From Candidatus Rubrimentiphilum sp. (GTDB lineage Bacteria; Vulcanimicrobiota; Vulcanimicrobiia; Vulcanimicrobiales; Vulcanimicrobiaceae): a DNA stretch of 64,000 bases. The stretch covers positions 434,001 to 498,000 of the forward strand of contig DASTDE010000001.1 in the NCBI GenBank assembly GCA_035710515.1. The letters are read 5' to 3'. How positions within the stretch are numbered: position 1 is the first letter of the stretch; every line of letters begins with the position of its first letter. The translations under genes and the position numbers were made by a program. Below the pieces are notes generated by a model. The model saw nothing but the letters and a program-made list of their open reading frames with translations, did no database searches and had not been told where the DNA came from. Positions 20,373-30,974 of the stretch are shown here, piece by piece.

Positions 20373-21038
20373 TTAGACTCCGGCCGCCGCAGCTTGCCTG
20401 CCGGCGTTGCGCCTTTCGATCCATGGGACCGTTGCGGCGATCGCCAGTTCGACGGCGTGTTTCATCAATTCCAGGGACATCGATGGGCTATTTCCCGCTC
20501 CGGCCTCAATGGCTTGCTCCGGCAGATAGGGCAGGTGAATAAAGCCCGCCGTCACCGGGGGAGAAACCGACTCGGCGATGCCCAGCGCTTCATACAAGGT
20601 TTGGTTGCACAAGAATGTTCCGGCTGAGTTCGACACATAACCGGGGACGCCGTTGCGCTGCCAGGCGTCGACGATTTCGGCAATCGGCATGGGCGAGAGC
20701 CGCGCATCGGGGCCACCGCGCAGGATCGGTTCGTTCTTGCGGACGACGCCGGCGTTGTCGGGATGCTCGAAGTCGAGCATATTGACCGCCACGCGCTCCA
20801 GCGAGACCGCGGTCTGGCCCGGCGCCAGACCCGTACAGAGGACCAAGTCCGGGTGCTCTTCGTCGATCGCTTGCTGCAGACGCTCGGGGACGCCCGAGGT
20901 TTCGACCGGAAAGATCCGTACGACGACGCGACGCCCCGCGATGAGGCGCCCTTCGAGACTGCGTGCGACGAGTTCGCTCGGGTTGACGTCCCTGCCGCCG
21001 AACGCTTCGAACCCCGTTACCAGAACCGGATTAGACAC
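20373..21038 (-). CDS. pcp: Pyrrolidone-carboxylate peptidase (pyroglutamyl-peptidase I)
   Basis: Cytosolic cysteine peptidase (C15) that removes N-terminal pyroglutamate. Length 221 aa is normal. VLVTGFEAFGGRDVNPS at the N-terminus, the catalytic Glu in AVSLERVAVN, catalytic Cys in VSNSAGTFLCNQTLYE near residue 141, and catalytic His in GFIHLPYLP are all present. It is the first gene of the leftward run that continues with the PHP enzyme. A strong terminator of the preceding unit lies just upstream at 21056-21083. Confidence 0.94.
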   Translation of the reverse strand: MSNPVLVTGFEAFGGRDVNPSELVARSLEGRLIAGRRVVVRIFPVETSGVPERLQQAIDEEHPDLVLCTGLAPGQTAVSLERVAVNMLDFEHPDNAGVVRKNEPILRGGPDARLSPMPIAEIVDAWQRNGVPGYVSNSAGTFLCNQTLYEALGIAESVSPPVTAGFIHLPYLPEQAIEAGAGNSPSMSLELMKHAVELAIAATVPWIERRNAGRQAAAAGV

Positions 21039-21055
21039 CGTTAAAAAGGTTAGGT

Positions 21056-21083
21056 GAAAAAAAGCCGGCTCCTTGAGCCGGCT
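21056..21083 (-). terminator. Rho-independent terminator of the sigma factor/alkyltransferase operon
   Basis: Perfect nine-base-pair stem AGCCGGCTC-CTT-GAGCCGGCT (21063-21083). On the minus strand it is followed by a run of seven T (A run at 21057-21063 on plus), a classical intrinsic terminator. It closes transcripts coming leftward from the gene ending at 21252. Confidence 0.9.
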
Positions 21084-21251
21084 GGATTAGTGGCATGTGA
21101 TTGCCGCCTTACGGGGCGGCACCTCCGTTCATCGTAACTTTAGAAAACCTATTACAATCGATGCTTACGATGACCACCTCCTCCGTCCGGCTGTTAGCCC
21201 TCGCTGGTCTGTAATCTGAGGGAACTTGCGGACTAATTTGCTGATCGACGT

Positions 21252-21989
21252 TCAGCGCTGCGGGCGATAGCCCTCCATCGTGAGCAAGCGCGCCTTCATC
21301 TCGATCCCGTAGCCGTAATTGTGCAGCGCGCCGGTCGAGTCCACGACGCGATGGCAGGGGAAGAAGAGCGGCAGCGGATTGCGCGCCATAACCTGGCCGA
21401 CCGCGCGCGCAGCCTTCGGCCGCCCAATCGCTTGCGCAACCCAAGCGTAGGAACGAACCTGTCCGGGCGGGATGCTGTAGGCAGCTTTGAGCGCTTCTTG
21501 CTCGAAGGGCGTCAGATCGCTGATGTCCATCTTGTCTTCGTCCACGTGCCACGTCTTGAAGTAATCGTCAAAAATCTTCCGCAGCCAGTCCGGCGTCTGC
21601 CCCTGATCGACGTGGCGGTGCAGCCGGCGCTCGATCTGCTCGCGCACTTTTTCGGGACCTTCGCCTCGATCGAGGCCGATGAAGGCGATGCGCGTCCCTT
21701 TGTAGCCGACGTAGACGCGGCCGATGCGCGTGTTCACCCAGGTCAGCATGATTGGATCGCTGCGGTACTTGTTTTGCAGCGTCGCGATGTGTTCGATTAC
21801 GCGCTTCGCTAGATTGCACGAGGGCTCGGGTTGGGGCAGACAGGAGAGGCAGTACGCGACGCCTTCGTATTGTTCGTAGAGGTCTTGGCATCGCTGGCAA
21901 GCGCGCAGATGATCGTGGACGGCGGCGCGCATCGGTGGCATACCCTCACGGATATCGTCCCACAGCGCTTCAACTTCACGACATCGCAT
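21252..21989 (-). CDS. Anti-sigma zinc finger (zf-HC2) fused to O6-alkylguanine-DNA alkyltransferase
   Basis: A 245-aa two-domain protein. Residues 1-40 form an anti-sigma ZAS/zf-HC2 motif: Cys3, His27, Cys31, Cys34 (HLRACQRC). From about residue 72 it is a complete alkyltransferase: the N-terminal ribonuclease-like domain (MLTWVNTRIGRVYVGYKG), the helix-turn-helix with IPPGQVRSYAWVAQAIG and RAVGQVMARN, and the acceptor Cys212 in FFPCHRVV. No membrane segment. The start ATG 21989 lies nine bases after AAGGAG and overlaps the sigma gene by 14 bases, as is usual for sigma/anti-sigma pairs. Inference: transfer of an alkyl group to the protein could relieve or trigger inhibition of the sigma factor, an Ada-like sensor built on an anti-sigma factor. 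Confidence 0.9.
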   Translation of the reverse strand: MRCREVEALWDDIREGMPPMRAAVHDHLRACQRCQDLYEQYEGVAYCLSCLPQPEPSCNLAKRVIEHIATLQNKYRSDPIMLTWVNTRIGRVYVGYKGTRIAFIGLDRGEGPEKVREQIERRLHRHVDQGQTPDWLRKIFDDYFKTWHVDEDKMDISDLTPFEQEALKAAYSIPPGQVRSYAWVAQAIGRPKAARAVGQVMARNPLPLFFPCHRVVDSTGALHNYGYGIEMKARLLTMEGYRPQR

Positions 21990-22632
21990 GGACAGTGTCT
22001 CCTTCCGGCACGGCTCTGCCGATTTGCGGGCCGAGGATACGCCGAAGAATGCGCACGGCACGATGCACGTGCGATTTCACGGTTCCAATCGGCTGGTTGA
22101 GGATTTCGGCGATCTCCGGATGGCTGCGGCCTTCGATGAACCGCAGCGTGGCCGCGGCGCGCAGGTGCATCGGGAGCTGGAGGAGCGCTCGCTCGACCAG
22201 CGCCATGTCGGCGTTTCGCTCGAGGATGTTCTCAGGTTGGGCCGGCCCGTCGTGGCGCGACCCGCGCAGCAGCGCGTCGGGGTCGGCCAGCGCGTCGAGC
22301 GCGACGTTGGTTGGCCGCTTTCCGCGTAGCCGGTTGCGAGTGACGTTGAGGGTAATCGTGTACAGCCAGGGCTGCAGGCGCAGCTCGGCGCGCTGTTCGG
22401 GCGACATCTTCGCGAGGGCGCGGTACGCTCGGACGAACGCGTCTTGCACGATCTCTTCGGCGTCTTCGCGATTGCCCGTCATGCGCAAGGCGAAGCCGTA
22501 GAGCCGGCGCTCGTATTCGTCAACGATGGTGTCGAAACGGTCGGTGCCCGGGGCGCCGACGCGCTTGATCGCCTTTTTCTGTGCCGGAGGCGGCACGTAG
22601 TACTCCCTCAGGAGCGGGGCGAGAGCGCTCAT
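21976..22632 (-). CDS. ECF (extracytoplasmic function) RNA polymerase sigma factor
   Basis: A 218-aa sigma-70 family group 4 factor. Region 2 is FDTIVDEYERRLYGFALRM followed by DAEEIVQDAFVRAYRAL (residues about 30-80); region 4 is ALLQLPMHLRAAATLRFIEG followed by IAEILNQPIGTVKSHVHRA near residues 150-200. A 35-residue N-terminal extension with PPPAQKKAIKR precedes region 2. It overlaps the zinc-finger/alkyltransferase gene, which is its presumed regulator. A gene of unknown function diverges 150 bases upstream. I did not find a convincing ECF promoter in that gap. Confidence 0.93.
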   Translation of the reverse strand: MSALAPLLREYYVPPPAQKKAIKRVGAPGTDRFDTIVDEYERRLYGFALRMTGNREDAEEIVQDAFVRAYRALAKMSPEQRAELRLQPWLYTITLNVTRNRLRGKRPTNVALDALADPDALLRGSRHDGPAQPENILERNADMALVERALLQLPMHLRAAATLRFIEGRSHPEIAEILNQPIGTVKSHVHRAVRILRRILGPQIGRAVPEGDTVHAMS

Positions 22633-22782
22633 ATACGCGTCCCAACACCGCGGCCTGCCGCGAAGGTTTCACATAGGGCTGGGCGAACCCGTCCGCCATG
22701 GCGCCTCAAGCGTTCATAGAGAAAACTTAACCGTTCGTCGCGTGTCGCGGCGAGCGGTTTTTGCTTGTTGGGGGAGAGATTG

Positions 22783-27402: not shown

Positions 27403-27795
27403 TTAGTTTTCGTCCGGCCAGGCGGCCAATTCGCCAATCGCGGCACTCTTTAAGACCTTCAATCCCAACATCGCACACTTCATGCGCGTCGGGCTGATGC
27501 CGATGCCGACATTTTCCAGCACGGCTTCCTTTGGAAGCTTGGCGATCTCCGACAACGATTTGCCTTTGATGGATTCGGTCAGCATGGACGCTGAGGCTTG
27601 GCTGATCGCGCAGCCCTTGCCCGAGAACTTTACGTCGTCCACCAGGCCGCGGTTGTTCAGTTTGAGTTCCATGCGGATTTGATCGCCGCAGAGCGGGTTG
27701 AGATCTTCGGCCGATGCGTCCACGCGATCGAGCTTGCCGAAATTGCGCGGATTCCGGTAGTGGTCGAGGATATAGTCGCGGTAGAAGTCGTCCAA
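27403..27795 (-). CDS. sufU: Fe-S cluster assembly sulfur-transfer protein SufU
   Basis: A 130-aa SufU-type protein that accepts sulfur from SufS. Zinc/active-site residues are in place: NPLCGDQ near residue 40 (Cys and Asp), the SufU-specific insertion after GKGCAISQASASMLTES, and a C-terminal Cys in RMKCAMLGLKVLK. The start is a TTG at 27795, two bases after the sufS stop and without a clear ribosome-binding site, indicating coupling to sufS. Last gene of the leftward SUF run. Confidence 0.92.
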   Translation of the reverse strand: MDDFYRDYILDHYRNPRNFGKLDRVDASAEDLNPLCGDQIRMELKLNNRGLVDDVKFSGKGCAISQASASMLTESIKGKSLSEIAKLPKEAVLENVGIGISPTRMKCAMLGLKVLKSAAIGELAAWPDEN

Positions 27796-27797
27796 GA

Positions 27798-29039
27798 TTA
27801 AATCTTGAAGACGTTGGCGGCTTTTTCGATGCCGGCGACCAATGCGTCGACATCCGCCTCGGTGTTGTAGATGTAGAACGAGGCGCGCGCCGTCGCCGGC
27901 CAGCCCATCTTTTCCATGAGCGGCATCGTGCAGTGGTGTCCGGCGCGGATGGCGACGCCCTCGGTATCGAGGATCGAGGCGAGATCGTGCGGATGCACGT
28001 CGCCGAAATTGAACGAGATGACATCGCCGATGCGATCGGGATCCTGCGGGCCGTAGATCGTCAAGCCGCGTGACTCGAGCGTGTGCAGGCGATCCAAAGC
28101 GTAGGCGACCAGGCCGCGCTCGTGGTCGCGCACCCAGTCCATACCGATGCCTTTGAGATAGCCGAGGGCCGCCGCAAAAGCGATCGCGTCCGCGACGTTG
28201 CTCGTACCGGCTTCGAACTTCCATGGCAGATCGTTGAACGTTGACTTGGCATACTCGACTTTGCGAATCATGTCGCCGCCGGTCAAAAACGGCGGCATGG
28301 CTTCGAGCACCTCGCGCTTGCCGTAGAGCACGCCGATGCCTGTCGGCCCGCACATCTTGTGTGCGCTTAAGGCGTAGAAGTCAGCATCAAGCGCTTTGAA
28401 GTCGACGGGCATGTTCGGCGCAGCCTGCGCGCCGTCAACCATCACGAGTGCTCCGGCGGCATGCGCGCGCGGAATGATGATGTCCAGCGGGGCGATCGTA
28501 CCGAGCGAATTGCTGACCTGCGAAAGGGCGACGAGTTTGCAGCCGTCGAGCAGCGCGTCGAGATCGTCGAGCACGTGCAGGCCGCGGTCGTCGACCGGAA
28601 TGAACCGCAACTCGGCTCCGGTTTTTTCCGCGAGGAGCTGCCACGGCACGAGGTTCGAATGATGTTCGAGTTGCGTCACCAGAATCGCGTCGCCGCGCTT
28701 GATATTGGTGAGTCCCCAAGAGTGCGACACGAGATTGATGGCTTCGGTCGTGTTGCGGGTCCAGATAATCTCTTGCGTTCGCGCGTTGAAGAATGAAGCG
28801 ACGGTCTCGCGCGCCTTCTCGAACTCCGCGGTCGCCCGTTCGGCAATTTCGTAGACGCCGCGGTGAATGTTGGCGTTGTATTGCGAGTAGTACTCGACCA
28901 GCGCATCGATGACGACTTGCGGCTTCTGCGAGGTCGCGGCCGAGTCAAGGTAGACCAGCCGTTTGCCGCGCGACGTGGGGCGCTGCAGGATCGGGAAGTC
29001 GGCAATGATGCGATCGACTTTGGGATCGGCGGCGATCAT
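27798..29039 (-). CDS. sufS: Cysteine desulfurase SufS
   Basis: Pyridoxal-phosphate enzyme (group II desulfurase, 413 aa) that takes sulfur from cysteine for Fe-S clusters. The PLP Lys is in YALSAHKMCGPTGIGVLYGK (His-Lys motif near residue 229), and the catalytic Cys in RAGHHCTMPLM near 366; LDSAATSQKP at the N-terminus is typical of SufS. Starts with an ATG that overlaps the stop of the sufD gene by four bases. SufU as the partner (instead of SufE) fits the next gene. Confidence 0.96.
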   Translation of the reverse strand: MIAADPKVDRIIADFPILQRPTSRGKRLVYLDSAATSQKPQVVIDALVEYYSQYNANIHRGVYEIAERATAEFEKARETVASFFNARTQEIIWTRNTTEAINLVSHSWGLTNIKRGDAILVTQLEHHSNLVPWQLLAEKTGAELRFIPVDDRGLHVLDDLDALLDGCKLVALSQVSNSLGTIAPLDIIIPRAHAAGALVMVDGAQAAPNMPVDFKALDADFYALSAHKMCGPTGIGVLYGKREVLEAMPPFLTGGDMIRKVEYAKSTFNDLPWKFEAGTSNVADAIAFAAALGYLKGIGMDWVRDHERGLVAYALDRLHTLESRGLTIYGPQDPDRIGDVISFNFGDVHPHDLASILDTEGVAIRAGHHCTMPLMEKMGWPATARASFYIYNTEADVDALVAGIEKAANVFKI

Positions 29040-30211
29040 GCGATCTTCGCTTCCAACGCAGCGCGCAAGCGATCGCGCAGCGCAGTCGTCGGGAAGCGCT
29101 CCAGCACGGGCTCGAAGAATCCGAGCGCAACCATCTTTTCGGCCGCATCGCGGGCGATGCCGCGGCTTTCCATATAGAAGATCACGTTCTCGTCGAGCGC
29201 GCCGATCGTGGCACCGTGAAATGCTTTGACGTCGTTGGCGCCGATCTCGAGCGCCGGCACGGAGTCGATGTGCGCTTTGCGGGAGAGCAGCAGCGCGTCG
29301 TCGCGCAGCGAAGCCGCGGTGCCCTGAGCGTGCGGCGCGATGCGAATGTTGCCGACGTAACGTCCTTGCCCGCGGCCCGTGGCGGCCGATTTAATCAGCG
29401 TCTCGGATTGCGATTCGCCGACGTTATGCCGGATCGTCGAAACGAGATCGACGTGCTGGTCGCCGCTGGGGAAGAAGAAACCGTTGAATTGCGCTTGGAC
29501 GCCGGGGTTGTCGATCAGCACGTCCACCGATGTAACGGCAAGCGCCGAGCCGAGCTCGGCCACGCACCAGGTTACGGATGCATCTTTGCCCGGCGCTGCA
29601 ACTCGCGTGAAGATGGATTGTGCGTCCGGCGGCAGCGTCTGCTCGGCGGCATACGTGACCGAAGCGTTCTCCGCGCACACGATCTCGGCAATGCCGCAGA
29701 CGGCTGCGCGCTCCTGGCCTTCGATCCGTTCGATGATGGTGCAGTGCGAGCCGCGTTCGAGCAGCACGAGCGTACACGGAAAGAGCGCACCGTCTTGGGT
29801 TGCGTACGTGACTTCGATGGGCTCGTCAACGGCGAGATCGGCCGGAATATAAATGAAGGCGCCGGCATTGCACAGCGCGGCAGCCAGCGCTGCAAACTTG
29901 GAGTTCAACGCGCCTACCGCGCTTCCAAAAGCGCGCGAAAAGAGCTGCGGATGTTTTTGCGCCGCAGTCGCGAGATCGCAGGCGATGACGCCGGGCTTTC
30001 CGGGGTCGCTAATGCGCGGGCTGGACGGCGCCGCGATGGCCTGCGCTGAGAAATCCAGCGCGTCGAGATCGATCTTCCAGAATTGTCCCGGACGCTCGCG
30101 CCCGGAGCGCAGTTCGAAAGCCCGATCCAGCAGCTCTTGCCGGCGGGCGTGACTTAAAATCGATTCGTCGAGGTTCTTCGGCACCGCGAGGCGCTCGAGC
30201 GTGCTAGGCAA
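29036..30211 (-). CDS. sufD: Fe-S cluster assembly scaffold subunit SufD
   Basis: A 391-aa beta-helix protein of the SufB/SufD family. The C-terminal signature is SufD-like (VKAFHGATIGALDENVIFYMESRGI and ALGFFEPVLERF); the N-terminal helical region has RRQELLDRAFELR. It partners SufC. Its start is a TTG eight bases inside the sufC 3' end. No sufB gene exists in this operon or elsewhere in the window, although SufB normally carries the scaffold cluster. Confidence 0.9.
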   Translation of the reverse strand: MPSTLERLAVPKNLDESILSHARRQELLDRAFELRSGRERPGQFWKIDLDALDFSAQAIAAPSSPRISDPGKPGVIACDLATAAQKHPQLFSRAFGSAVGALNSKFAALAAALCNAGAFIYIPADLAVDEPIEVTYATQDGALFPCTLVLLERGSHCTIIERIEGQERAAVCGIAEIVCAENASVTYAAEQTLPPDAQSIFTRVAAPGKDASVTWCVAELGSALAVTSVDVLIDNPGVQAQFNGFFFPSGDQHVDLVSTIRHNVGESQSETLIKSAATGRGQGRYVGNIRIAPHAQGTAASLRDDALLLSRKAHIDSVPALEIGANDVKAFHGATIGALDENVIFYMESRGIARDAAEKMVALGFFEPVLERFPTTALRDRLRAALEAKIA

Positions 30212-30974
30212 TCTGCGCGATCTCCTCGCGAATGGTGTCGTAGCCTTCGCGCTCGATGCGCTGCGCCAGTTCCGCGTCGCCTTCCTTGACGATGCGGCCG
30301 TCGATCATAATGTGCACGACGTCGGCTTTGACGTATTGCAAGATGCGCGGATAGTGCGTGATGATGAGAAAACCCATGTCCTTGCTTTGCTCGCTGGCGC
30401 GCATGGCGTTCACCGACTCGCCGACCGCGCGCAGCGCGTCCACGTCGAGTCCGGAATCGGTTTCATCCAGGACCGCATATTTGGGCGAAAGCATCGCGAG
30501 CTGCAGCATCTCGAGGCGCTTTTTCTCACCGCCGGAAAAACCGTCGTTCAGGTAGCGGCCCATAAAACTCGGATCCATGTCGAGCAGATCCATTTTTTCC
30601 AGCAGCAATGCGCGGAATTTGGCGGGCGGGAGATCGCCCGGATGCAGCGCCTGTCGCGCCGCGAACAAAAAGTTTGCGACCTTCACGCCTGGGATCGCGG
30701 CCGGATATTGGAACGAAAGAAAGAGGCCGGCTTTGGCGCGTTTGTCGGGCGGGAGCGCCAGCATGTCAGTGCCGTCCAGCGTGACGGAACCGCTTTCAAC
30801 TTTAAAGCCTGGGTGGCCGGTCAGCGAGAAGGCGAGCGTTGACTTGCCGCTGCCATTCGGACCCATGAGCGCGTGCACGCGGCCGGGTTCGACCGTCAGG
30901 TCGATGCCTTTGAGAATGTTTGTGCCGCCCGCACTGGCGCGCAGCTGGTGAATACGTAGGCCCCGCTCGGACAC
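30204..30974 (-). CDS. sufC: Fe-S cluster assembly ATPase SufC
   Basis: A 256-aa ABC-type ATPase of the SUF system. Walker A LMGPNGSGKSTLAFSLTGHP, signature FSGGEKKRLEMLQLA, Walker B YAVLDETDSGLD, and a downstream switch His in FLIITHYPRIL are all present. First gene of the leftward operon sufCDSU, with a good sigma70-type promoter at 31029-31057 and the sufR gene divergent. Starts with GTG. Confidence 0.96.
   Translation of the reverse strand: MSERGLRIHQLRASAGGTNILKGIDLTVEPGRVHALMGPNGSGKSTLAFSLTGHPGFKVESGSVTLDGTDMLALPPDKRAKAGLFLSFQYPAAIPGVKVANFLFAARQALHPGDLPPAKFRALLLEKMDLLDMDPSFMGRYLNDGFSGGEKKRLEMLQLAMLSPKYAVLDETDSGLDVDALRAVGESVNAMRASEQSKDMGFLIITHYPRILQYVKADVVHIMIDGRIVKEGDAELAQRIEREGYDTIREEIAQIA

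Follow-up and report, generated by a model that had tools for sequence, protein, structure and literature searches.

How might a suicide DNA repair enzyme come to be joined to the regulator of a sigma factor, and what would such a protein sense? This question is raised by a two-gene operon of Candidatus Rubrimentiphilum sp., located in a stretch of 64,000 nucleotides that was analyzed as a whole (here called the window). The first gene encodes an ECF sigma factor and the second a fusion of an anti-sigma domain with an O6-alkylguanine-DNA alkyltransferase (AGT).

Layout and conservation of the operon

The operon lies on the minus strand and is laid out as follows.

21976 to 22632, minus strand: ECF sigma factor of 218 aa with regions 2 and 4, SigW-like (Pfam, NCBIfam; ortholog adjoining the fusion in all 65 loci)
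21252 to 21989, minus strand: anti-sigma/alkyltransferase fusion of 245 aa, ATG at 21989, kept at full length across the order
21999 to 22004, minus strand: ribosome-binding site AAGGAG of the fusion gene, within the sigma gene, kept in most relatives

Pfam recognized sigma regions 2 and 4 with E values of 1.5e-16 and 3.7e-14, and SigW was the nearest NCBIfam model. The sequence-only reading had described a 14-base overlap of the two genes and a ribosome-binding site, and we recovered both, with the two open reading frames at these minus-strand coordinates: the genes share 14 nt (21976-21989), and AAGGAG ends 9 nt before the ATG of the fusion. This ATG is the conserved start, and the listed 269-aa open reading frame with a GTG start is too long for the product. 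Numbered from it, the Cys3-His27-Cys31-Cys34 motif and the PCHRV motif with Cys212 lie exactly at the residues first proposed. No membrane segment was predicted in the fusion. PADLOC gave no match, and no repair genes kept beside the operon were recognized among its neighbors, which resemble housekeeping genes. Elsewhere in the window, positions 27403-30974 (minus strand) hold an apparent SUF Fe-S assembly cluster (SufC, SufD, SufS, and SufU-like).

A search for further genomes with an adjacent ECF and fusion gene, as the sequence-only reading had proposed, found the pair throughout the order. Among 98 related genomes, 64 carried a full-length fusion and one more a copy cut by a contig end, which amounts to 65/65 sampled genomes of the order, in two families; elsewhere in the class or phylum, the same search found no full-length fusion. 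According to the named records, the carriers belong to Candidatus Eremiobacterota (WPS-2, Vulcanimicrobiota), and the order is described as uncultured soil bacteria of this group. The sigma gene lies directly upstream of the fusion in 65/65 loci, mostly with an overlap of 14 or 11 nt. Because the arrangement is conserved in every sampled genome of the order with an adjoining sigma gene each time, chance can be excluded as its origin. We also rejected the idea that the fusion is recent or mobile in origin, as it is order-wide with partly conserved synteny. The operon (locus L086) is present in a complete single-contig genome (G014) of 3,508,363 bases, with 68% GC at the locus. Two contigs recorded as Rhodospirillales MAGs (L148 and L161) bear the Eremiobacterota operon, and their record names look wrong.

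The two domains of the fusion protein

The fusion divides into two predicted domains, with the following coordinates.

21762 to 21989, minus strand: class I anti-sigma (ZAS) domain, residues 1-76 (AlphaFold2 model, RsiW match, hhalign, zf-HC2)
21981 to 21983, minus strand: Cys3, predicted zinc ligand, invariant in 65/65 aligned copies
21888 to 21911, minus strand: His27-x3-Cys31-x2-Cys34, predicted zinc ligands, each invariant in 65/65 aligned copies
21255 to 21761, minus strand: complete two-domain O6-alkylguanine-DNA alkyltransferase, residues 77-245 (PF01035, Foldseek)
21354 to 21356, minus strand: Cys212, predicted alkyl acceptor in PCHRV, present in 64/64 copies extending that far

AlphaFold2 placed helices at residues 4-14, 20-30, 32-49, and 58-74 of the N-terminal part. 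A profile of the N-terminal family matched RsiW in the PDB (5wuq, E value of 4e-5) and also 3hug, which we take to be Mycobacterium RslA (E value of 0.01). Alignment of the anti-sigma profile to two RsiW-like proteins with hhalign gave a probability of 93.5 and an E value of 2.3e-7. The zinc part of this particular sequence fell below the zf-HC2 cutoff, and 19/37 family members matched, the best with an E value of 7.6e-7. When modeled alone, the domain reached a pLDDT of 79, and a Foldseek search of the PDB with this model had no hit; the assignment therefore rests on sequence, motif, and context. Several traits of class I anti-sigma factors are present, namely the Hx3Cx2C motif with an upstream Cys, an adjoining ECF sigma gene, and a three-helix bundle followed by helix 4. 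The anti-sigma identity and the ECF pairing proposed earlier are thus borne out by the RsiW and zf-HC2 matches and by the constancy of the pair, and they support the view that the N-terminal part is a genuine class I zinc anti-sigma domain. Class I anti-sigma factors contact sigma4 through helix 1 and sigma2 through helix 4 (PMC7406223), and we infer that the fusion likewise binds and inhibits its own sigma factor.

The invariance of the zinc ligands also fits a thiol-redox or electrophile sensor, in which oxidation or direct alkylation of the zinc cysteines would free sigma, as with RsrA or ChrR, and the AGT would be the repair output on the same chain. Soluble ZAS proteins are frequently redox sensors (PMC7406223), and additional cysteines occur at position 47 (55/65) and position 50 (54/65). 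Neither of these two is universal, however, and in RsiW, the nearest ZAS match, the zinc is structural (PMC7406223). We regard this explanation as unlikely, also in view of the relatives described below.

The C-terminal part had been read as a full alkyltransferase, and Pfam, the alignment of catalytic residues, and Foldseek all agree. The AGT DNA-binding domain (PF01035) was detected with an E value of 1.1e-28. The whole model matched Ada-C (1sfe, TM score of 0.80) and Mycobacterium tuberculosis OGT (E value of 4e-12), and pLDDT was mostly >90 over the AGT fold. Among the copies extending that far, Y181, N204, C212, H213, R214, and E239 are invariant and R195 is present in 63/64. We take Y181, R195, N204, C212, H213, R214, and E239 to correspond to Y114, R128, N137, C145, H146, R147, and E172 of human AGT. 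With the PCHRV acceptor cysteine, the Tyr/Arg/Asn/Glu set, and the two-domain fold, the AGT appears catalytically complete by its residues and presumably retains repair activity. Tyr227 occupies the position of Trp in Ada and of Gly160 in human AGT, which hints that small adducts are preferred (PMC10779285).

The DNA-binding residues are conserved equally with the acceptor cysteine, as would be expected if the AGT, on binding damaged DNA and not on alkylation of Cys212, displaced sigma or carried the complex to DNA. Such a lesion-occupancy sensor would, however, tolerate a Cys-to-Trp change of the kind found in ATL-like proteins, whereas the acceptor cysteine has been kept in all 64 Eremiobacterota copies that reach it. 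We consider this reading improbable, more so than a thiol sensor.

The genome under study encodes two further AGT-family proteins. One (L001, G000:C1:151740-151979) is an AraC-type HTH fused to an AGT; its Ada N-terminal zinc domain is missing, so it would lack the usual methylphosphotriester trigger. The other (L003, G000:C1:558011-558211) is an alkyltransferase-like protein with PWHR replacing PCHR. Since genomes of the order hold other AGTs, such as this AraC-AGT, repair does not depend on the fusion alone.

Actinobacterial relatives and previously described systems

Searches by tblastn with the AGT fusion and, separately, with the sigma factor converged on loci of Nonomuraea gerenzanensis and of Streptomyces plasmids, and when the Nonomuraea protein served as the query, Rubrobacter radiotolerans and a further Streptomyces were recovered as well. 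Plasmid matches in Sinorhizobium, Bernardetia, Pusillibacter, Klebsiella, and others were rejected because they were AGT or Ada genes of the usual kind and no ECF gene lay near them. In the actinobacterial operons, the ECF sigma gene is followed by the gene of a protein that begins with a short helix-like stretch resembling anti-sigma helix 4, continues with a PCHR-bearing AGT domain, and ends in an Ada zinc domain. The zinc finger, absence of which from most homologues was to count against the earlier reading, is retained in 65/65 members of the order, but its HCC motif is missing from this distant family (present in 0/5 relatives). In a Streptomyces NBC_00212 plasmid, sigma factor, AGT, and Ada zinc domain form one chain of 448 aa (L181:2107-3453), which is annotated just as an MGMT family protein. 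All three Streptomyces operons have an additional, separate AGT gene next.

In the AGT tree, a single branch (95/92) set the ECF-linked AGTs of both phyla apart from the rest, and the sigma tree united the Eremiobacterota and actinobacterial ECF-AGT sigma factors with moderate support (89/88), both trees having few comparison rows. The two systems were sisters in each tree.

These relatives bear on what the signal could be. The Actinobacteria have no HCC motif, but their alkyl-accepting domains have been retained or have increased in number. A signal common to the whole family is therefore more likely to be alkylation (at Cys212) than a change at the zinc thiols. Retention of the AGT and gain of an Ada domain by proteins devoid of the HCC motif likewise argue against a redox sensor. 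The Streptomyces plasmid proteins (L178, L179, and L181) retain PCHR but have lost the Tyr114- and Arg128-type residues, so transfer by the AGT may be dispensable there, as a lesion-occupancy sensor would allow. Their Ada domain looks intact, and sensing may therefore have moved to it.

We then compared the operon with described systems. A 2022 review (PMC8999054, citing the Casas-Pastor classification) gives for ECF122 a 6-O-methylguanine DNA methyltransferase as conserved neighbor, with a Cellulomonas example; it lists the group as lacking an anti-sigma factor, with an unknown mechanism, and does not mention an anti-sigma-AGT fusion. The actinobacterial ECF-AGT operons are probably ECF122, and on that account the association of an ECF sigma factor with an AGT is not wholly new. 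ECF122 as presented there shares with our operon an ECF sigma factor and an AGT-type neighbor but differs in that the neighbor is here fused to an anti-sigma domain. The arrangement had been thought unfamiliar. For the link between an ECF group and a methyltransferase this does not hold, since it is already published, but an anti-sigma-AGT fusion did not turn up in our text searches of the open-access literature, and a 2023 alkyltransferase review does not mention sigma factors. What appears to be new is the order-wide fusion, in which a class I anti-sigma factor carries a sensor domain of a new type and through which the adaptive response would take a new route.

The nearest known architecture is that of ChrR, a ZAS domain with a C-terminal sensor domain (PMC8999054). 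Like the fusion, ChrR, the partner of SigE (RpoE) in Rhodobacter sphaeroides, is soluble and holds its sigma factor through an N-terminal ZAS domain, but it detects singlet oxygen with a cupin-like domain and not DNA damage with a repair enzyme. The RsiW/SigW pair of Bacillus provides the closest sequence matches for both sigma and anti-sigma, yet RsiW is membrane bound, is freed by proteolysis, and has a structural zinc. Ada of E. coli and AdaA/AdaB of B. subtilis share the AGT fold and the autoregulated use of a repair protein's self-alkylation as a transcriptional signal. They differ in that Ada activates transcription by binding DNA through an AraC HTH, in response to a methylphosphotriester at its N-terminal zinc cysteine, whereas the fusion has neither the HTH nor the Ada zinc domain and its output would be a sigma factor. 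Pfam found no AraC-type HTH in the fusion, and the Ada_Zn_binding domain (PF02805) was not found in the fusion, in this genome, or in the genus.

Promoter, terminator, and a proposed alkylation switch

Two further elements flank the genes.

22644 to 22671, minus strand: putative ECF-type promoter TGAAACC-N14-CGGTGTT, 11 nt ahead of the sigma ATG, conserved in position across genomes
21057 to 21082, minus strand: intrinsic terminator, GCCGGCTC hairpin followed by T7, from the sequence and with the stem present in the fold, downstream of the operon and just ahead of the next gene

An element of the type GTGAAACC...GGTGTT keeps a fixed position ahead of the sigma gene. Of 63 genomes, 51 have GAAAC at 118-136 nt before codon 31, whereas other intervals of equal width contain it in 1-5 of 63. 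In most genomes GAAAC lies 35-39 nt ahead of the sigma ATG, so that the transcript is apparently leaderless. SigW promoters also have a -35 element of TGAAAC. Each of the seven genomes of the genus contains the conserved form TGAAACCTT-N12-CGGTGTT just once, at the operon, which suggests that the operon itself is the main target and that it is autoregulated by its sigma factor. When we used the motif to look for a wider regulon in this genome and the genus, other matches varied between genomes and were about as frequent as in a reversed-pattern control. With no other conserved target promoter found, the response may be narrow.

The noncoding region that follows the AGT gene (21040-21240, minus strand) is conserved in the genus and folds better than shuffled sequences (z of -3.1). 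It ends in an intrinsic terminator right ahead of the start codon of the next gene and is a candidate leader or attenuator RNA; Rfam gave no hit at the gathering threshold over the locus, this region included. The next gene (20373-21038) encodes a pyroglutamyl-peptidase-like protein.

The best explanation of the operon is, in our judgment, a self-consuming alkylation sensor, which we hold with slightly better than even confidence. The soluble fusion would bind the ECF sigma factor through its N-terminal zinc domain (helices 1-3 plus helix 4) and keep it away from RNA polymerase. On repair of O6-alkylguanine by the AGT, the alkyl group would be moved irreversibly onto Cys212. Alkylated AGTs are destabilized and then degraded (PMC4605297, PMC10779285). 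Loss of the AGT fold would either break the grip on sigma or send the entire fusion to a protease. In the AlphaFold2 model, helix 4 ends at residue 74, six residues ahead of the first AGT strand (from residue 80), and we propose that unfolding of the AGT would loosen the grip because the sigma-binding helix leads directly into the AGT fold. Free sigma would transcribe its own operon from TGAAACC-N14-CGGTGTT, and the newly made sigma and unalkylated fusion would follow, the latter repairing DNA and recapturing sigma until the damage is gone. The sequence-only reading, in which alkyl transfer to Cys212 or a zinc cysteine alters sigma binding, is overall partly supported: the domains, their residues, and their pairing are as described, and we infer the sigma-fusion complex, the autoregulation, and the alkylation-triggered release.

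The C-terminal domains of anti-sigma factors can bind other sensory proteins (PMC7406223), which would suit an operon without a switch of this kind: the anti-sigma domain would merely couple the levels of sigma and repair protein, and another partner or a protease would free sigma under a different stress. A suicide repair enzyme would nonetheless be an odd passive scaffold, and order-wide catalytic conservation and the actinobacterial addition of an Ada domain both point to alkylation. We find this the least probable of the explanations considered.

For the self-consuming sensor, we give even chances to a broader reading, in which consumption of a repair protein frees the sigma factor that replaces it, as a second, Ada-independent alkylation response that would be ancient and exist in two forms, in Eremiobacterota and Actinobacteria. 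If true, a sigma/anti-sigma pair would take the role of Ada-type activators, and repair and sensing would be one irreversible event, making the fusion a natural one-shot molecular counter of DNA lesions. This would also offer a testable mechanism for ECF122, a conserved group whose mechanism the 2022 review gives as unknown, and would explain alkylation sensing in an order in which many genomes are devoid of the Ada zinc domain.
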